Virus record (IMG/VR): IMGVR_UViG_3300036652_000886
Coordinates: 1-35,213 of that record
Reading direction: 5' to 3' (one strand)
Length of the DNA stretch: 35,213 nucleotides
Source of the DNA: a virus
Shown here: positions 5,038 through 35,213 of the stretch, piece by piece
Numbering within the stretch: position 1 is the first letter of the stretch
How the letters are laid out: each line of letters begins with the position of its first letter
Program-made: the position numbers and the translations under genes
The notes under the pieces: generated by a model
Told to the model about the DNA's origin: nothing
Seen by the model: only the letters and a program-made list of their open reading frames with translations
Database searches by the model: none

Positions 5038-5073
5038 CCTGTCATTGGTGGCAATTTGGAGAGGGCATTTTCT

Positions 5074-5116
5074 ATGCTTATCAAGCATGCGCTCTAACCA
5101 GCTGAGCTAATGGCCC
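5074..5116 (-). pseudogene. Truncated tRNA-Ile(GAT): 5' half only
   Basis: Read on the minus strand from 5116, 43 nt match the start of a bacterial tRNA-Ile: acceptor strand GGGCCAT, D arm GCTCAGCTGGTTAGAGC, and anticodon arm with loop TTGATAA (anticodon GAT). The anticodon stem has four of five pairs. After that the match ends: there is no TTCGAAT T-loop and no 3' acceptor strand ATGGCCC. It is therefore not a working tRNA. It most likely is the piece of the host tRNA gene carried in attP. Carrying the 5' half is unusual, since most phages carry the 3' half. Confidence 0.75.
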
Positions 5117-5153: not shown

Positions 5154-6299
5154 CTAGTACCCTTCTGAGTACCCCTCAGATGATGCTACTTGGTAGACTT
5201 CCACTGCAGCTATCATTTCACGGTCGAACACGTTACGATATGTCGTTCTCACCATCCTGGTATTTTTGTGACCGGACCCACGCGCCAAAACAGCATCGGG
5301 AACATTGTTGGAAGCCAGATACGAAATTCCCAACGTCTTGAGTGAGTAGGGAGTCGGCCCGATTGGTAGACCGAGGTCTTTACGGATACGCTCAAAGTTG
5401 AAGGTGTGGCGGGTATGTGGTTTCCCATCGTCCTGAGAGAAGATGAAGGATGCCTCAGACTCGCCTTTGCGGGCCTCTCTGGCACGTTTGAAGAGTGAGG
5501 TAAGGATTTGGTTCATCGGAACACCTAGACCAGCCCGAGAGTCGTCCTCTCCGGTTTTCGTTGAATCTACGACGATTGGACCAGACTTATCATCACGAAT
5601 GGTTTCATCAAACGTAATGCCTTGATTCTTGAAATCAATATCAGACCATCGCAAGGCCCAAGTCTCATTCATGCGACAACGAAGAATGAACATCGTAGCA
5701 ACCCAAAGCCGAGCCATCAAGGGCTTGGTTTCATCCCCAATGACCTGAAGAATGACCTCAGCCTCAAATAGTTTCTTTTGCTTCGGGATAACCCGGCGTG
5801 TCTTAATGTCACAGAAATAATCATCGGGCCGACTTGGAATCCGATGTTTGCCAAACCTTAAAGCCAGAAATAGGTCCTCTCGAAGGTCATTAAACTTCCG
5901 AGGAGTCGTGAGAACCTCAATGGCTTGAAAATAGCTCTCCATTGCTTCGAGATGCAGGTTGGCTAAAGGAATAGACCGGAAGCGTTCCGCTATGGGGTGC
6001 ACCAAGACCATTTCCGTGATACGGCTCTTGCGGGCCCGAAATTCACCCCAAGAGATAGACCCGGCCTCATACCGATTCTGTTCCCGGTCAATGAACTCTA
6101 AGAGTAACCCCTGAAACCGGGTATTCTTATCAATCCCTGGCTTGGCATGAGCCTCTCTGGTGCGCTTCGTCACAGCCTCAGACTCGGTTGCCCCATAGAA
6201 ATCCTTAGAGGTAGGTCGAATTCCAGTCACAGGGTCCTTGGGAAAGGTAAGCCTGGCTCGCCATAACCCCTTGCGAACCTTGCGGGTGTTAGTAGGCAT
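5154..6299 (-). CDS. int: Tyrosine recombinase (phage integrase)
   Basis: A 381-residue site-specific recombinase for integrating and excising the phage. The N-terminal part (about 1-70) is a basic arm-binding-like region. The core-binding helical domain is at about 60-165 and the catalytic domain at about 175-365. Visible catalytic residues are Arg209 (CRMNETWALRWSDID), Lys248 (KTGEDD), His344 in SGHKN and nucleophile Tyr354 (TTYRNV). The usual HxxR box reads YSLK (318-321), so both His and Arg are replaced by conservative but atypical residues. The start is supported by a strong AAGGAGG nine bases upstream, inside the end of the excisionase-like gene. The gene ends in TAG. It sits directly beside the tRNA remnant and repeats of attP. 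Confidence 0.93.
   Translation of the reverse strand: MPTNTRKVRKGLWRARLTFPKDPVTGIRPTSKDFYGATESEAVTKRTREAHAKPGIDKNTRFQGLLLEFIDREQNRYEAGSISWGEFRARKSRITEMVLVHPIAERFRSIPLANLHLEAMESYFQAIEVLTTPRKFNDLREDLFLALRFGKHRIPSRPDDYFCDIKTRRVIPKQKKLFEAEVILQVIGDETKPLMARLWVATMFILRCRMNETWALRWSDIDFKNQGITFDETIRDDKSGPIVVDSTKTGEDDSRAGLGVPMNQILTSLFKRAREARKGESEASFIFSQDDGKPHTRHTFNFERIRKDLGLPIGPTPYSLKTLGISYLASNNVPDAVLARGSGHKNTRMVRTTYRNVFDREMIAAVEVYQVASSEGYSEGY
5158..5177. repeat. 20-bp direct repeat, copy 2, inside the integrase 3' end
   Basis: Identical to 4925-4944. Read on the minus strand it encodes the last residues of the integrase (…EGYSEGY). The putative arm site and the coding end therefore overlap, which ties the gene to its site. 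Confidence 0.7.
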
Positions 6300-6312: not shown

Positions 6313-6495
6313 TTAAGAGGCCCTATTAGATTGGAATTTGACTAATGCCTTTTCAGTCACTCGTAAACAAGCCCGTTTCGTAAGGTCCGAGGCTGCATTG
6401 AACGCCTCAAGCCGACCCCTTTCAATAAGACTGTAGACCGCCTGAGGACAAAGACCCAATAGTCTAGCCACCTCCTTAACTGAGTATGATTGCAT
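6313..6495 (-). CDS. xis: Excisionase-like helix-turn-helix protein
   Basis: A 60-residue protein with a MerR/excisionase-type HTH: YSVKEVARLLGLCPQAVYSLIERGRLEAF, followed by a wing-like stretch ending in LRVTEKALVKF. Such small proteins bend attachment-site DNA and bias integrase towards excision. They can also act as regulators. It lies 13 bp upstream of int on the same strand, and the int ribosome site is within its 3' end, so the two are coupled. Its own start has AGG eight bases upstream. No larger repressor gene is present, so this protein could also be the lysogeny regulator; that is inference. Confidence 0.8.
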   Translation of the reverse strand: MQSYSVKEVARLLGLCPQAVYSLIERGRLEAFNAASDLTKRACLRVTEKALVKFQSNRAS

Positions 6496-6586: not shown

Positions 6587-6769
6587 TCAGTTGAGCGAGA
6601 AATGAGCATCTATAATCGAATTATCCTGGGGCTTGGGTTCAAAGGCTTTACCAACAAACAATTCCCGCATGATTTGTCTTTCCACTAAAATTCTGTGAAC
6701 AGTTGCCAGGGTGTAAAGATTCGCCACTAAACCAACTATAATTACGAGAGAGAAGAAAAAAAGCCACAT
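6587..6769 (-). CDS. Small single-pass membrane protein (60 aa)
   Basis: The N-terminus is one long hydrophobic segment (FFFSLVIIVGLVANLYTLAT, about residues 4-23), followed by a charged helix (RILVERQIMREL) and a hydrophilic tail. AAAGGG lies about nine bases upstream of the ATG. It would be the first gene of the leftward transcript towards xis and int. No family is recognised. Small prophage-expressed membrane proteins sometimes act in superinfection exclusion, but nothing here shows that. An overlapping frame on the same strand (6648-6842) is less protein-like. Confidence 0.5.
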   Translation of the reverse strand: MWLFFFSLVIIVGLVANLYTLATVHRILVERQIMRELFVGKAFEPKPQDNSIIDAHFSLN

Positions 6770-6913
6770 CAGTAAAGCCCTTTATAAAGAGAATAGTGAG
6801 TGAGTGCCGAAGCGAATTTATCCCCTTCGGCTTTGCCAGCATACTACAGCGTCGAATTATTGCCTAGCCTTTTCGGATTTATTCTTTACGCATAAATTAA
6901 GAACTGAAAAGAT

Positions 6914-6943
6914 GTTATAGATTGACGACTATCCATCAATCAA
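6914..6943 (-). promoter_or_regulatory. Candidate leftward promoter for the small membrane protein–xis–int transcript
   Basis: On the minus strand, TTGATT (6938-6943) and TATAAC (6914-6919) are spaced by 18 bases. The same stretch contains an inverted repeat, ATTGA…TCAAT (about 6922-6940), that could be an operator. It lies in the divergent gap between the leftward genes and the rightward RNA region. Confidence 0.45.
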
Positions 6944-6997
6944 AAAAGATTTTTCAAAAAGTATGCTGCAACTCTAGATTTTTCCTATACTCTATAT

Positions 6998-7115
6998 ATA
7001 GAATCAATTTATACGGTTAGAGTTGGTACGGAAAACTTTTAAGTTGTCTCAGGGTGAAAACCCATGAGAAACAAAAGACCTGATGCTTGACTAGCCGCAA
7101 GCGCCGGGTCTTTTT
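6998..7115 (+). ncRNA. Candidate small RNA with its own terminator
   Basis: About 120 nt with no ORF. It has a clear stem-loop at 7044-7075 (TTGTCTCAGGGT…ACCC…TGAGAAACAA) followed at once by a rho-independent terminator (7073-7115). AT-rich hexamers TATACT (6986-6991) and TATATA lie just upstream, but no good -35 is visible, so the 5' end is uncertain. It faces away from the integrase operon, where a small antisense or regulatory RNA could sit. No RNA family is recognised. Confidence 0.5.
7073..7115 (+). terminator. Rho-independent terminator with nested hairpin
   Basis: AAAAGACC (7073-7080) pairs with GGTCTTTT (7107-7114); GCTTG (7085-7089) pairs with CAAGC (7098-7102) inside the loop. A run of five T follows. 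Confidence 0.8.
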
Positions 7116-7776
7116 ATATTGTTGTTGTCATCCTTCGTACATAGAGCTACGAGCCAAATGGGTTCCTAGTTATTAAAGCGAAGGAGGACGACAACAACTC
7201 TACTAAATCCTGAATAATCAATCTAGCACTTCGACTTTATCATTCAGTCTGAGTAGCACATGAAGAAGAGTGACCGCATGCAAGTTGCGGACCCTGACGA
7301 CCTTTACCCCTATGGTAGACCGTAGTGGTGTTAGTGCGGGACTATGAATGCAACTCTTCATTGAGCCAAGGAGCATAAGCCGCAAGGTTGGGCTATTATC
7401 TGAAAATGATAATACTGTCGTTGTCGTGGCAATCGTAGTAGATGAACGGGCAACCAGGCTGGTATCAAGGTGGATTCTACCTTATACTCCTTAGTCGTCT
7501 ATTGCCCAAACGTAAGACTAGAAAATAATTATAGTCTCTTATCATTAGGAGAAGGTTGAGAATTGAAGATTAAATCTACTACTTATCATTAGGAGAATAA
7601 AAATATTATATCTTTTTAGGATTAGTAGTAGATGCAAGGCTATAGAGCTTCTATGGCTCTAATCTCCTACTTCGGATTAAGGAGAATAAATTTTATTATA
7701 AACACTTTGATGATTTAGCCCACGGGGTTAAGCCCTTCTTCCTTGATTTCGCCGTCGAAGCGAAGCGAAGACGTTT

Positions 7777-7810
7777 CCCCATCCCCCAATTCCGCTTTCC
7801 CCCCTTCCCC
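7777..7810 (-). other. G-quadruplex motif (four G runs of 4-6) on the minus strand
   Basis: The plus strand has C runs at 7777-7780, 7783-7787, 7799-7804 and 7807-7810. On the minus strand these are four runs of four to six G with loops of 2, 11 and 2 bases. Only one G interrupts the plus-strand tract. It lies in the distal part of the large RNA region, after the triplicated GAAGC motif (7757-7770). Confidence 0.65.
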
Positions 7811-7903
7811 AAATCATCCGAAGATGCGTTGAATTGCAGTCTTTGACTTATAATTGAAATAGTTGTAGTGGTACCAGTAAACGTGTGTTACTGCTCTACA
7901 CCG

Positions 7904-7945
7904 AAGCACCCAACATTTTATGCCATTCTTTGTTGGGTGCTTTTT
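7904..7945 (+). terminator. Strong rho-independent terminator of the large RNA region
   Basis: AAGCACCCAACA (7904-7915) pairs perfectly with TGTTGGGTGCTT (7931-7942) and is followed by T residues: a 12-bp stem. It lies well before the HNH start at 8126, so it ends the RNA rather than serving the HNH gene. Confidence 0.9.
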
Positions 7946-8125
7946 CTTTGTCCTGGTATTGGTGTTCTTTATTATTTGTGTACGCCTATTTGTTACGAAT
8001 CCCGAAAGCCACGCAATTCTAATAGGTGTAAGACACTTATACTACACAACACCCTGCGCCATTCAATGTTCGAGTTTGTGTCCTCCTCCATTGATTCTCA
8101 TTGGTGCAGAAGAGGAAACATAAAA

Positions 8126-8821
8126 ATGGCAAGACCTATACTTCCCCTTGATACTCCATGTTTTGACTGCGGGATAAATCCTCGTAGACAATACTCGAAA
8201 CGGCTTTGGACGTATTGTGGGAGTTGTCATAATAAGCGAACCATGAAGTGGAAGAGCGAAAATCCCGAAGCAGTGAAACTCTCTCAAGAAAAAGCTAAAG
8301 CACAGCGAAAACAATTACGAACCCAGAATCCGAAAAAGACCCCTAAGCGCCAACAACAGATTATTGATGTCGTGACCTTCATTACAGACAACCCTAATCA
8401 TCAAGCATGCATTATCTGGGAAGGCGCTGGCCGAAATAGCTACGGAAGACTGTCTTGGGGAACGAAGGTCGTATCCGCACCCCGTATCGCCCTTAAACTG
8501 TTTATGGAACAGAACAACCAAGAGTTCGATGAGAGTTTAGATGTTCTGCATAGCTGTGATAATCCACCCTGCTACTCCCCGAATCACTTGCGACTAGGAA
8601 CTGCGAAAGAAAATATTGCCGAAGCCATCCAACGCGGTCGATTTACACACCACCTGGCCCCAAAGCCTAATCTTCGTAAATTAACAGAGGACCAGATAAG
8701 AGACATTCGCAGACGCGTTGCAACAGGTCAAACACAAAGCTTCATTGCAGCCCAGATGAACGTTTGCAAATTCACAATTAGCTCCATCGTGCGCAATCTG
8801 ACTTATAAAAACGTGGTGTAA
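8126..8821 (+). CDS. HNH endonuclease with zinc ribbon and C-terminal HTH (homing-type)
   Basis: A 231-residue protein. An N-terminal zinc ribbon has paired cysteines (CFDCG and YCGSCHNK). The middle holds an HNH_3-type nuclease core (VLHSCDNPPCYSPNHLRLGT followed by a KENIAEAIQRGR helix). The C-terminus is a resolvase-like HTH (LTEDQIRDIRRRVATGQTQ). This is the usual build of free-standing phage homing endonucleases, which cut DNA lacking them and spread by repair. The start at 8126 has AGAGGAAA upstream. The frame is open back to 7868, but that part overlaps the 12-bp terminator and reads like non-coding sequence. After the terminator, 7946-8125 shows no gene. It shares the CSSCHNK/CGSCHNK ribbon with its neighbour at 8883. 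Confidence 0.85.
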   Translation: MARPILPLDTPCFDCGINPRRQYSKRLWTYCGSCHNKRTMKWKSENPEAVKLSQEKAKAQRKQLRTQNPKKTPKRQQQIIDVVTFITDNPNHQACIIWEGAGRNSYGRLSWGTKVVSAPRIALKLFMEQNNQEFDESLDVLHSCDNPPCYSPNHLRLGTAKENIAEAIQRGRFTHHLAPKPNLRKLTEDQIRDIRRRVATGQTQSFIAAQMNVCKFTISSIVRNLTYKNVV

Positions 8822-10005: not shown

Positions 10006-10220
10006 TGAGCACAACTACTACCTGGGAACCCTATACCGAGAAGTTCCTAGATTGGCTCCTACAATCATCACCAGATGACTTCCAAAGAATAATGAACAAA
10101 AACTTAACCAATAAAAGACTTAAACGACTCATGGTTAGATTTGAAACCGAATACCCAGAGGCTTATAAGGATAAACCAAACAGAAGTGATGAAACAAAAC
10201 AAAAACAAACAACCACCTGA
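10005..10220 (+). CDS. Small hypothetical protein (71 aa)
   Basis: The start overlaps the previous stop (TAATG). The N-terminal part is helical (TWEPYTEKFLDWLLQSSPDD) followed by a basic stretch (NKNLTNKRLKRLMVRFE) and a lysine/threonine-rich tail. It resembles small phage DNA-binding or adaptor proteins only loosely. It overlaps the start of the sigma-like gene by 32 bases. An in-frame upstream start at 9954 would overlap the membrane peptide and is less likely. Confidence 0.55.
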   Translation: MSTTTTWEPYTEKFLDWLLQSSPDDFQRIMNKNLTNKRLKRLMVRFETEYPEAYKDKPNRSDETKQKQTTT

Positions 10221-10683
10221 AACAGATGACAATAATGATGATATTAACCTCGGCATTATCATTAGTACCAATGATGATGAAATAATAATAACAACAACTA
10301 CACATGTTGACTACCCAAATGACGAAGAGTACGAAGAAGCCCTAAAGCAATATCAACCCCTTATTAATAAACTCGTTAAACAATGGTATGTACCTAATAA
10401 AAACTCCCTGGAAAGAGATGACCTCCTGCAACACGCAAGAATAGCGCTCTTTAATGCCATGAAACTCTTTGACCCAGAAAGACAAATCTATTTCGGTATC
10501 TACCTCAAACAAGCCATTACCAATAACTTGGCTAACTACGTGAGACAATATCAACCCCACCATTGGACTAAAGATATAGAGAAAACTCAAGAGACCGGAA
10601 AACAATGCTTTAAAAGAGTTCGCATCTACGTCCAAAGCCTAGATTCTGCAGAAGAAAATAAAAACAATGACTACAACTCATAA
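10189..10683 (+). CDS. Sigma-70 region 2-like protein, possible late-gene activator
   Basis: A 164-residue protein. The first 45 residues are Asn/Asp/Thr-rich and probably disordered. Residues about 55-120 match the helix pattern of sigma-70 region 2: YQPLINKLVKQW, then RDDLLQHARIALFNAMKLFDPERQ, then YLKQAITNNLANYVRQ. These correspond to the core-binding helix with its DL(L/I)Q motif, the FDPER turn and the -10-recognition helix. No region 4 is visible in the C-terminal 40 residues. It lies directly before the small terminase gene, the position of late-transcription activators such as ArpU/RinA in other phages. It may redirect host RNA polymerase to virion genes. The ATG at 10189 is chosen over an upstream TTG at 10141. 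Confidence 0.7.
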   Translation: MKQNKNKQPPETDDNNDDINLGIIISTNDDEIIITTTTHVDYPNDEEYEEALKQYQPLINKLVKQWYVPNKNSLERDDLLQHARIALFNAMKLFDPERQIYFGIYLKQAITNNLANYVRQYQPHHWTKDIEKTQETGKQCFKRVRIYVQSLDSAEENKNNDYNS

Positions 10684-22000: not shown

Positions 22001-22010
22001 GAGTAAAAAG

Positions 22011-22048
22011 AGTCTCACATCCGTTAAGCCCATGGCGGATGTGAGGCT
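22011..22048 (+). promoter_or_regulatory. 13-bp hairpin after the tail tube gene
   Basis: AGTCTCACATCCG (22011-22023) pairs with CGGATGTGAGGCT (22036-22048), with one G·T pair. No T run follows, so it is more likely an mRNA-stabilising or processing hairpin that keeps tail-tube mRNA abundant than a terminator. Confidence 0.65.
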
Positions 22049-22087
22049 ACCAACTATATGGGCAAAAATGGAAAAAGAGAAAACATA

Positions 22088-22582
22088 ATGGGCCGTAAAC
22101 TAGATATGATTAATGCTTCCTCAGAAGGCAAGCCAGTAAATTTAAAACGCGACAACATCGAGCATGAACTTGATAGTGTCGATAGTCAACTCAAAACGTT
22201 AGAGCCTGACACCGTGACCGTACCACTTATTGATGGTACGAAGGTCGAGCTTCCCGTGGAGCTTACGCTTGAAGATATTTTCAAGAACAAGGTGATGAAT
22301 TCGGTTCGCTTCTTTTACTTCTTGATGCAGTCTGTAATTAAAGACATCAAGGGTGAAAAACCGATGTCTCCCAATGACCCACTCTTCTTTGGAATTCTAT
22401 TCGAGGAAAGTGTTCAAGAGGCCATGGCTAAGTTGGTTGCAACAGTTACCAGACGTAATGCGGCTGACTTCTCTGGCAAATTCGGACCAGAGGGCGCAGT
22501 AGAAGTTTTCAAATGGGTTCTTAAAATGATTACTGGTAAAACAAAACCGAGTAACGAGGAGCCACAAGACCCAAAACAATAA
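22088..22582 (+). CDS. Tail assembly chaperone, short form (gpG-like)
   Basis: A 164-residue protein between the tube and tape measure genes, where tail assembly chaperones lie. It is acidic, with helices at FKNKVMNSVRFFYFLMQ, PLFFGILFEESVQEAMAKLV and VEVFKWVLKMITG. A low-complexity end (NEEPQDPKQ) leads to the stop. The slippery CCCAAAA is six bases before the stop, so a fraction of ribosomes would make the longer fusion. The start may be the ATG at 22088 (AGAGA upstream) or the in-frame ATG at 22058 (GAGG 11 bases upstream); the choice is uncertain. Chaperones coat the tape measure during tail assembly and are absent from virions. Confidence 0.8.
   Translation: MGRKLDMINASSEGKPVNLKRDNIEHELDSVDSQLKTLEPDTVTVPLIDGTKVELPVELTLEDIFKNKVMNSVRFFYFLMQSVIKDIKGEKPMSPNDPLFFGILFEESVQEAMAKLVATVTRRNAADFSGKFGPEGAVEVFKWVLKMITGKTKPSNEEPQDPKQ
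22570..22576 (+). promoter_or_regulatory. -1 ribosomal frameshift slippery site CCCAAAA
   Basis: In the chaperone frame the bases read C CCA AAA, a perfect X XXY YYZ heptamer. It is directly before CAA TAA. A one-base slip back gives CCC AAA ACA ATA AGG GGT and opens the downstream frame to 22755. Confidence 0.88.
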
Positions 22583-22755
22583 GGGGTATTTACGAGGAAA
22601 TCGCAGTTGTACGTCATTATCATGGCTACACAGAAGAAGCACTCTGGAAGTTAACCCTCAATCAACTTCATTTGGATTATTACTTCGCTATCAAGGCTGA
22701 ACGCCGACAAGCAGAACTTCTTGCAATGGCTGTAGCTAAATCCCTATCTGGTTAA
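22577..22755 (+). CDS. Frameshift extension of tail chaperone (gpT-like part of gpGT fusion)
   Basis: This frame has no convincing start of its own and is reached by a -1 slip at 22570-22576. It adds about 60 residues: TIRGIYEEIAVVRHYHGYTE, then a helix ending in AKSLSG. The GYTEEALWKLT and YYFAIKAERR pattern is typical of gpT-type C-terminal parts of chaperone fusions. In lambda-like tails the gpG:gpGT ratio, set by frameshifting, controls tail assembly. The stop is TAA at 22753-22755. A terminator-like hairpin follows before the tape measure gene. Confidence 0.85.
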
Positions 22756-25800: not shown

Positions 25801-26896
25801 ATCTGCTGCTGGTGGTATTCTCTCCTTGGCTGGCGCAAGTTCTAGTGGCGGTGCGCATGGACCAAATGGTTCTTCTTCTAGTCCTATTAGTGTTGTTGTC
25901 CAAGACGCTGGTTCAAACTTCCTTAGCAAAACAACGGGTTCCACTAGTGGCGTAAGTCCATTTTCTGCTCCCACTCCAGCAATGACCGGATTAATGGTTC
26001 TCGCTGGCGCGGCTGGTGTTGGTGGTCTTATTGGTAGCATGGAAGGCGCTGGCACAGGTGCTCAAAAGACCCACGCCACGAACGGAATGATTGGTGGAGT
26101 TGCGGGCGCTGCCGCAGGTGGCTTGGGTGCCCTAGCCTTAGGCTTTGGTGGTGGTGCTTTTGGTACTCTGGGCGCTGGCCTCTCTATGTTCACTCCCGCA
26201 GGTTGGGCAATTCTTGCTGGTGGAGCACTTCTTGGTGGTCTAGCTGGCGGAGCTATTGGGCCACATTGGGGACCAGCCACAAACTACCCGGACCGTGCTG
26301 ATACACAAAACTACGGTGGCTTTGTTTCTGATGTAAACGGTGTCTCTGGTAACTTCAATGGGACAAGCATAAGCCCACAATCAAAATTCTCTGGTGAGAA
26401 TACAGCCAAAGACATGGCTCACCAGATGTATGCCTGGGCTCAAGCAAATGCAAGTGATGCTATTGCGAAACAAATTCTTGCTCTTGGTGCAAGCGGTAGT
26501 GATATTCGCATTTCCAATGAGAAGGATGGCGTCTTCACGTTATCCGATGGAACCAAGATTTCAGTAACTGATTATGAAAAACTCGGAAGTGCTTTCAACA
26601 GCAAGATTGCCTCTGGTGGTGCTTCAACTTCCCCAATCTTTGCGCTTGACCGATTAGCGCCAGACTTCAATACCGCCCGAACATCAGCATGGACTTCGAA
26701 TAGTCGAACAACTGGCGTTCCTACTCCATCTGGTGCGGGCGGTATTGACCCAATTCATCATCACCCACCCATTCTTGTAACCATAAACAATCCTCGTATT
26801 TATGGTGCTGGTGGCGTGGAAGAGTTTGCATTGCAAATTGAAACCGCTATCGCAAGAAACCGTACACATAATTCTGGAAATCGAAATGAATACTAA
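22868..26896 (+). CDS. Tail tape measure protein
   Basis: A 1342-residue protein in the expected place after the chaperones. The N-terminus is helical (SIKLTADMTAVETQLAGIIA) and a TMP-type region lies at about 150-310 (TTTFSRDQVVDALKQLTSAG, LLGIGTKA-like segments, LPGALSELGNVFESFKESVG). Hydrophobic segments occur at about 115-135, 405-425, 480-495 and 1050-1140, the last very Gly/Ala-rich. A long charged coiled coil runs at about 670-960. It sets tail length and is ejected with DNA; by the usual 1.5 Å per residue this length suggests a tail near 200 nm. AAGG precedes the ATG. No lysozyme or peptidase domain is evident. Confidence 0.92.
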   Translation: MADMEASIKLTADMTAVETQLAGIIAQFEALTGKSLPAAAGGLVEVEGGAKAASAGLAAAAESSSVLDKFLEDVGLHSRTVAIGLESMGLSAEASAAKIGGLVEAFASLKSAVPALLLITAGFAAVFGSFELIKDSISDAGKWNQSMQVLGATVTAQGGDWKTLSKDVAEYADLQERTTTFSRDQVVDALKQLTSAGMGVAEAMQVNRIAEDASIATGQSLVTVNHALVEAMHGRTQALTMLGIGTKASIKAGMSFSDILTAIEKQMGGTAAAALNTLPGALSELGNVFESFKESVGQNLQQPLIALVQTFISLVENDGPPVVDFINNLTNTAELLGHEVTSEIIPAFNDLVAAFQPTIDGVHNLTEEVVGSHNGWQILQQLIENAAQAIRDFTEFLANNKDLVEVFFDVLIAVKAVGALTALQGSFALTVVGGGAFTTVIETLASVFTVGFIPTLQAVTASVWEFVASETAATMGLNLLIGGAIVAFIEGMQHMDSVVHTVDDTIAGLLGDIHNIYDALEELFNSISGWIPGANLLADAFGAIGTAAGNAANAIRDMNNAKAAQAGNLDSPNAIMSQQMAGLELTIATDKNPKDVAEAKKNLSALFIKRGDNADGTYGSESGNPATIPDDHTMVGGGHGKKKKSGSGSGYNATKTNVAAEDLNNIRKEKKALADAVDADTLAEAENKIKIDDSLTSVGAKTAAEEKLYSAYQNSIKSLPQLTSEVTTEKTTADAARISLEAKYDAYTDSVDALNGLKESLSGKTKLSKDDKEAIHDATAAEVAAQLAYKKSDKDLISVNATLAERKKQLDAATKATKNFVNEQQNLMVSFNDKEAAAQQKQTDTEATYGLSPEAQLAYYQQLLTAKKQEDQDYFDVHHFWNQKIHDDDAALYDKVLQLQTTEYTKAIDAARKRYSEEEKYVGTFLSDLLVKHKSFSSELKSIYDDILKAFITMVEKMIVESKLFQGIMGALGIATGSSAAGGILSLAGASSSGGAHGPNGSSSSPISVVVQDAGSNFLSKTTGSTSGVSPFSAPTPAMTGLMVLAGAAGVGGLIGSMEGAGTGAQKTHATNGMIGGVAGAAAGGLGALALGFGGGAFGTLGAGLSMFTPAGWAILAGGALLGGLAGGAIGPHWGPATNYPDRADTQNYGGFVSDVNGVSGNFNGTSISPQSKFSGENTAKDMAHQMYAWAQANASDAIAKQILALGASGSDIRISNEKDGVFTLSDGTKISVTDYEKLGSAFNSKIASGGASTSPIFALDRLAPDFNTARTSAWTSNSRTTGVPTPSGAGGIDPIHHHPPILVTINNPRIYGAGGVEEFALQIETAIARNRTHNSGNRNEY

Positions 26897-33750: not shown

Positions 33751-35213
33751 ATGGCTCTAGCAATTGTACAGCAGCAACACAGTGCAATAACCAGTTCACC
33801 AGCTAATTTATCTGTCACACTAACCAGTGCCCCAACTGCTGGTAATTTACTCATTGCCTTTGTTTCTGATTATGACAATGCCCCAATTATTGGTGCTGGC
33901 TGGACAGTTATTGATACTCAGGTTCCACCAAATGCAACGATTAATGAACTCTCGGCTTATAAGATTGCTGGTGCTGGAGAATCACCAACACAGATTCCAG
34001 CAACGGTAGGTTTGGCGGGTGACAATGGCGCTGTTCATGTTTATGAAATATCTGGTTAGGCAAGTACAAATTTCATCAATGCACACGCGAAAACCTATGG
34101 AACGTATAATGCAAAGACCGTTTCAACGCCACCTGTTACCCCGAGTTCGTTGAACTGCCTATTACTAATTGGTATTCCATCAAATACCGGCGCACCAATT
34201 GCAGGACCAGCGGCACTTACGCAAGACGCTGGCTCTGGTGGTTCTGGATATAATACCAACCAAGCTGATTTTCATAGAACCTCACTCACTTCAGATACGA
34301 CAACCGCACTTAGTTATGTAATTAACCAACCTCTCGGTTCGACTATCGACGCTCTTGTAGTATTGATAACCCCTATGTCGTTGTATTCATCAACCATCCT
34401 CGCTGATAACCCAGTAGTCTACTACCGACTTGACGACACCGGAACGACGGCGGTTAATTCGGGCACGGGCGGAAGTACCTATAACGCAACCATTGGCGCA
34501 GGTGTAACGACGGGCGCAACGGGGCTAGTCACCGGCAGCGACGCCGCGATGTCCTTCCCTTCGGGGGCGTATTCAGCCACGAACGCCGTTACGACCGCTC
34601 GGCAAACCGGGATTGAGTTTACCGACAACTACTCGATTGAGTGCTGGTTCACGATTCCATCGCTTCCCAGTACCTCTACCAGTACCTGGCTCGTGTCCTA
34701 CACCGGCGGATATTCCGCCGTTGTGACCAACAACGGCGGGTCTATCACGCCGTACTTCAGCTTTGGCAATCACGGCCTGCAAAATGGTCTAAATGCGTTC
34801 GCGGCCAACACGACGTATCACCTCGTCTGCACCTTCTCTGGTGGGACCGCGTCCATCTATGTCAACGGCGCACTGTGGTACAGCTACAGCGGCTATTCGA
34901 CGACGATGAGCTACACAAGCTCATCGTCGCTCATCATTGGCGGCGAGCCGAGTGGCATTAATGCCACAGCCGCAACCATCGATGAGGCGGCTATCTATGG
35001 CATCGCCCTCACTGCAGCACAGGTCTCAGCACACTACAATGCTGGCCTGCCGCCAAAGACATACACCGCGAGTCTCGCTGACAGTGTGCAGACCGGGCCG
35101 GGCACGACGTCGGTCCAAGTTGTCCAGCAAAAGGTAGTCAACGCTTCAAATAACCAACCGGCGGTTACGTTTTCGACGCGCCCCGCGACCGGCAATCTCC
35201 TCGTCGCGGCGCT
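33751..35213 (+). CDS. Tail fibre, N-terminal part, with in-frame amber codon (continues at base 223)
   Basis: Start of the fibre gene completed at 1-3241; joined length is 1494 codons. ATG at 33751 has AGGA 13 bases upstream. Codons 1-102 form a beta-rich module ending in VHVYEISG, then TAG (34057-34059). The same frame continues without another stop to the end of the window and on to 3241. The post-amber residues complete the module (FINAHAKTYGTYNAK…), followed by a LamG domain (about 34375-35040: ILADNPVVYYRLDDTG … TIDEAAIYGIALTAAQVSAHY). The paralogous module at about 100-720 has Phe where the amber lies (VYEVSGFNTG). So the frame is real, and is either read through, mutated or misassembled. 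A restart at ATG 34375 is possible. Confidence 0.75.
34057..34059 (+). other. In-frame amber (TAG) codon in the fibre gene
   Basis: Codon 103 of the fibre frame, context GGT TAG GCA. At least five other genes here (int, the 4320 gene, terS, 11409 and 32143) end in TAG, so amber is a normal stop in this phage. No suppressor tRNA is seen. If translated, the residue would be specific to this site. Confidence 0.8.
34999..35213. repeat. Terminal direct repeat, right copy
   Basis: Exact match to bases 8-222, offset 34,991. It encodes the end of the first LamG domain and the start of the next module of the tail fibre. Confidence 0.9.

Follow-up and report, generated by a model that had tools for sequence, protein, structure and literature searches.

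A gene-free region of 1356 nt (6770-8125) at the start of the rightward half of this phage very probably makes one or more folded RNAs that end at a strong terminator. The reading that we prefer, with a probability of roughly 45%, is that the region encodes one large structured noncoding RNA acting in trans, an orphan that would resemble the large RNA of the Vibrio phage ICP1 in size and setting. As the region matches no known RNA family and no related sequence was found, it makes a good candidate for a new large phage RNA, though an unproven one.

The window (the whole stretch of DNA that was analysed, 35,213 nt) is an IMG/VR virus record containing the genome of a complete, circularly permuted phage of about 35.0 kb. 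An exact 215-bp end repeat (bases 8-222 are the same as 34999-35213, offset 7 bases from the left end) indicates a complete circular map whose cut lies inside the LamG adhesin gene. The genes that flank the gene-free region are as follows.

5154-6299, minus strand: tyrosine integrase
6313-6495, minus strand: HTH/excisionase-like protein
8126-8821, plus strand: HNH endonuclease of the free-standing type, the first gene past the gene-free region

The rightward half is divergent from the integrase side and encodes two HNH endonucleases, small ORFs and a protein with sigma-70 region 2, then the small and large terminase subunits, the portal and the head genes. Only the HNH endonucleases, the small ORFs and the sigma-like protein precede the terminase genes, which confirms the setting given in the preliminary description (the start of the rightward half of a phage with few early proteins). 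The sigma-like protein (180 amino acids, 10141-10683), encoded directly before the terminase genes, matches little else than sigma-70 region 2 and is possibly a late-gene sigma-like activator. Neither inspection nor family scans, which covered part of the genes, turned up a recognisable repressor or replication gene, and ARAGORN detected no tRNA genes in the whole window. Directly beyond the integrase gene, 44 nt (5073-5116, minus strand) resemble the 5' half of tRNA-Ile(GAU); they are probably attP, and the phage is likely to integrate into a host tRNA-Ile gene. The 44-nt sequence has no exact match in viral contigs.

The gap is by far the longest gene-free stretch in the phage, the next largest being 300 nt. 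Of the 150-nt frames in it the best scores 0.07 per codon; windows taken from phage genes have a median score of 0.17, with 0.02 as the 5th percentile. The longest stop-to-stop frame wholly within the gap has 87 amino acids and is antisense, while the longest ATG frame preceded by a Shine-Dalgarno (SD) sequence has 28 (7632-7715); the latter is the sole such frame besides the downstream HNH gene and has no Pfam match. The earlier view that the region holds no credible gene is thus borne out, and the region is a long orf-less gap without coding signal, as expected of a large phage noncoding RNA. One direct repeat was identified in it.

7538-7553 (copy 1) and 7582-7597 (copy 2), plus strand: direct repeat CTTATCATTAGGAGAA, containing an SD-like AGGAG without a suitable start codon

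In viral contigs CTTATCATTAGGAGAA has 19 matches, which were taken as chance; the sequence surrounding them has no further similarity. AGGAG occurs five times in the RNA region (7182, 7369, 7547, 7591 and 7680, plus strand), of 17 occurrences on the whole plus strand, and the SD sites of the phage's own genes are mostly weak. Taken alone, this cluster was found in none of 1000 shuffles, but once all 5-mers were considered it was equalled in 133 of 300 and is not significant. The motifs would be of interest if the RNA turns up on ribosomes.

The plus strand of the region is more structured than expected by chance, and the excess is strand-specific. The minimum free energy of 6998-7945 (plus strand) is -296.4 kcal/mol, compared with -236.3 +/- 5.5 in dinucleotide shuffles (z -11.0; -8.95 in a repeat run), while 7119-7945 gave z -6.3 to -6.8 in two runs. 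The minus strand is weaker, with z -3.97 for 6998-7945 and a second figure of -3.1. When the plus strand was tiled in 830-nt pieces the most extreme tile was 6641-7470 (z -7.7); none of the tiles gains as much energy per base as 7119-7945 (0.052 kcal/mol). The many helices that had been noticed by eye are therefore real as an overall excess above shuffles. The predicted hairpins and domains within the region are listed below.

7119-7197, plus strand: long hairpin of 79 nt, with a 19-bp outer stem (one mismatch) plus a 10-bp inner stem
7265-7359, plus strand: predicted domain closed by GAAGAGT/ACTCTTC, with hairpin 7306-7329 inside (z -2.5 for 7255-7370)
7574-7633, plus strand: hairpin of 60 nt, 13 bp plus 10 bp (pair probability 0.86-0.98)
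7709-7818, plus strand: predicted domain closed by GATGATTT/AAATCATC (z -3.0 for 7705-7825; pair probability 0.88-0.96)

The excess is concentrated in four pieces, 7119-7200 (z -8.8), 7900-7948 (-6.8), 7570-7690 (-5.3) and 6998-7117 (-4.0), and is absent from 7243-7375 and 7826-7900 in the piecewise shuffle test. Hairpin 7119-7197 has a minimum free energy of -39.0 compared with -15.0 in shuffles (z -8.8 on the plus strand and -4.9 on the minus), and 7570-7690, which spans hairpin 7574-7633, has z -5.25 and -3.4 on the respective strands. With the end hairpins removed z is -4.9 (7200-7902), -4.3, -2.9 (7203-7890) or -3.1 (7203-7830), values for this middle part that vary with the edges and shuffles chosen; 7203-7512 has z -1.1. 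Together the piecewise values indicate a modest but real excess in the middle and a strong excess in a few local hairpins.

Strong folding excess was also seen elsewhere on the plus strand of the phage, at 22001-22200 (z -6.0), where the tail gene begins (22058), and at 26601-26800 (z -6.6), inside the end of the tape measure gene. At its end the tail gene (22058-22582) carries a CCCAAAA heptamer whose register, C CCA AAA (22570-22576), is slippery; a 66-codon frame in the -1 register (22555-22755) comes next, just ahead of the tape measure gene. This arrangement probably represents programmed -1 frameshifting for the tail assembly chaperone.

The ends of the putative transcript are marked by the following features.

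6986-6991, plus strand: TATACT, a possible -10 box, inferred from the sequence, for a start near 6998
7073-7117, plus strand: strong terminator-like hairpin (stem-loop 7073-7114 and T run), 16 bp with an 8-nt loop
7904-7945, plus strand: intrinsic terminator, 12 perfect bp (7904-7915/7931-7942) with a 15-nt loop and TTTTT (z -6.8)

The 12-bp terminator of the preliminary description was upheld, with its perfect stem, run of five T and z of -6.8, and it is rightward only, the opposite strand having no T run. The 5' end given there (7119) was not supported, because the strong terminator-like hairpin ends just before it and there is no promoter-like site. That hairpin (7073-7117) is a candidate attenuator or the candidate end of a separate RNA of about 120 nt. 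Either a transcript starts near 6998 and reads through 7073-7114, or the region would make several short RNAs. A scan of the region gave no convincing promoter; TATACT has no -35 consensus at the right distance and was missed by the scan. Past the second terminator lies a possible separate promoter for the HNH gene (7948-7975), a match at chance level.

Long-range pairings were also predicted.

7014-7023 with 7893-7903, plus strand: predicted end-closing helix of 10 bp (mean pair probability 0.94), its 3' strand abutting the terminator
7252-7262/7882-7892, 7458-7466/7870-7878 and 7487-7496/7675-7684, plus strand: predicted nested long-range helices (pair probabilities 0.84-0.98)

By the pair probabilities, successive parts of the 3' strand 7870-7903 are predicted to pair with 7458-7466, then 7252-7262, then 7014-7023, up to the terminator. 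Such pairings would join the two ends into one molecule of about 950 nt, which is suggestive and not evidence. The 5'/3' hybrid 7014-7023/7893-7903 was equalled in 52 of 2000 shuffles and is marginal, and three or more such long helices were present in 10 of 80 shuffled RNAs; the long-range architecture is near chance and its pairs are not significant. A pseudoknot at 7439-7506, seen by eye, was absent from a strict scan and was rejected as evidence, since such crossings occur in 33 of 200 shuffles. The part earlier described as multi-branched (7448-7507) proved unremarkable (z -2.1 for 7415-7530), given the same frequency of crossing helices in shuffles.

The preliminary description named GOLLD and ROOL as the classes to which the region might belong. 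A cmscan search of the whole window with all 4227 Rfam families gave no match at the gathering score, and the region alone, with E up to 10, gave nothing meaningful. Sub-threshold matches (ylbH, snoR2, SAM-Chlorobi and others) had E of 0.03 or worse, were mostly on the minus strand and were attributed to chance. A direct search of the region for ROOL gave no match. As a positive control, the same Rfam search recovered the ROOL of plasmid pMP118 at its published place (PMC5643018) with 130.4 bits and E 9.2e-28, so a ROOL diverged to the ordinary degree would have been detected here. Both GOLLD and ROOL usually have tRNA genes as neighbours (PMC12286853). The region has neither a covariance model match to ROOL (RF03087) nor tRNA genes nearby, the latter being a usual and not a strict feature. 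For GOLLD, whose covariance model includes a conserved 3' region, there was no match in the all-family scan, in which ROOL was the only positive control, and the tRNA genes that usually but not strictly accompany it are missing from the window. A group I or group II intron was rejected on the basis that there was no Rfam intron match and the region lies between genes, not within one.

Homologues were sought by viral contig scans, by blastn, and with profiles or patterns in some 1,800 genomes and records. The nucleotide BLAST proposed earlier, run against phages and plasmids, found no homologue of the region. Scans with the integrase, terminase, portal and capsid revealed just three short contigs as kin (L041, L159 and L160), none of them reaching the RNA region. 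Their portals are about 33-35% and their capsids 48-60% identical to those of the phage, with the L159 capsid about 49% identical over its length; the contigs represent a sparsely sampled phage group. No prophage kin were found in the sampled phyla by capsid profile or tRNA attachment pattern, an empty answer that carries little weight.

The closest parallel is in ICP1, a phage without tRNAs, whose most abundant transcript is an RNA of about 800 nt from a 1-kb orf-less gap (PMC7567579). The present region is alike in size, in the orf-less gap, in the lack of tRNAs in the phage and in belonging to no Rfam family at cut-off. The ICP1 RNA differs in that it is shown to be expressed and that it lies in the gp139-gp140 gap, by the lysis genes of a lytic phage; there is also no sequence relation, the present region having no blastn match to any phage record. 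By the same measure of folding, the ICP1 gap has a weaker excess (z -2.2 to -2.8, with -2.2 for the strand that carries the flanking genes), and the stretch of pMP118 that holds ROOL has z -3.75 on its own strand. With these smaller z values in both, the region is at least as structured as expressed RNAs, with the reservation that local hairpins dominate its score. ROOL is alike in size class and in being carried by phages and prophages, and GOLLD in being often over 800 nt and of phage or prophage origin; both differ in their model matches and in the tRNA genes near them. The lnc001 and lnc002 RNAs of phage K are likewise long RNAs from intergenic phage gaps, a likeness drawn from their description, but they have tRNA genes next to them and were demonstrated by RNA-seq (PMC9241854).

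Of the earlier proposal of a giant RNA, then, the structured, rightward, noncoding and intrinsically terminated character and the size stand, whereas identity with GOLLD or ROOL is not supported. Against a single large RNA count the near-chance long-range architecture, the hairpin that would split it, the lack of a convincing promoter in the scan, the origin of much of the folding excess in four local hairpins (z only -2.9 to -4.9 in the middle) and the failure to find a homologue. Much the same hairpins could belong to a cis-acting early leader or attenuator, the main rival and a possible reading but not a probable one, in which transcripts from near 6998 would terminate at 7073-7117 and 7904-7945. 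Read-through into the HNH and early genes would then be controlled by the hairpins or by short RNAs processed from them, and such RNA control could take the place of the repressor gene apparently missing from the phage. P4-type immunity RNA and the HK022 put antitermination sites are structured early leaders of temperate phages with terminators in series, and the two serial terminator-like hairpins at the start of the rightward early region, together with the lack of a recognisable repressor or replication gene, are consistent with control of that kind. GTAGTAGATG, at 7435 and 7625, is complementary to 7574-7583, a layout that would allow competing pairings; at such length, however, a repeated 10-nt segment is within chance (about one expected by our own estimate). 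P4-type immunity RNA and the put sites are also much shorter, 830 nt being very long for a leader, and the HNH gene may have its own promoter, itself the chance-level match given above.

That the strong signal is confined to four hairpins, with z -1.1 for 7203-7512, would also fit an ordinary regulatory and intergenic region made up of terminators, one or two small RNAs, and sequence that has no function or works at the DNA level (a replication or recombination site, for example, or homing endonuclease relics), and HNH genes of the adjoining kind are widespread in unrelated phages. We consider this improbable, given the strand-specific folding excess. A replication origin was rejected, there being no tandem repeats, DnaA box cluster or clear GC-skew turn at the region, and phages rarely retain 1.3 kb of idle DNA. 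Least probable of all, and very unlikely, is an mRNA that encodes very small proteins, such as those of the frames at 7632-7715 (28 residues) or 7563 (9 residues, TTG start), with the folding belonging to a type I toxin-antitoxin or peptide-control locus. A weak SD precedes the frame at 7632 at 10 nt, the product of this frame is partly hydrophobic, and the five AGGAG motifs point in the same direction, but most of these have no start codon at a usable distance, their excess is not unusual among all 5-mers and no family match was obtained.

For the preferred reading, a single large RNA, we propose that transcription runs rightward from the promoter area where the integrase/excisionase side and the early genes diverge, with the RNA starting near 6998 and ending at 7904-7945, where the terminator would shield the downstream HNH gene from its transcription. 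If hairpin 7073-7114 terminates efficiently, the products would be an RNA of about 120 nt plus a minority read-through RNA of about 950 nt. By analogy with ICP1, phage K, GOLLD and ROOL, the RNA would most likely act in trans, being stable and abundant during infection or lysogeny.

We know of very few giant phage RNA classes, and of none with an established function. It is conceivable, though we hold it only tentatively, that the region represents a new one, of about 950 nt and unrelated to GOLLD, ROOL and OLE, in a temperate phage whose host lineage is unsampled, at the position expected for the repressor or early control. If so, it would offer a compact, testable case in a temperate phage that is small and has almost nothing in its early region. 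If the RNA is instead a long leader, it could show how early genes are controlled by RNA in place of a repressor protein.
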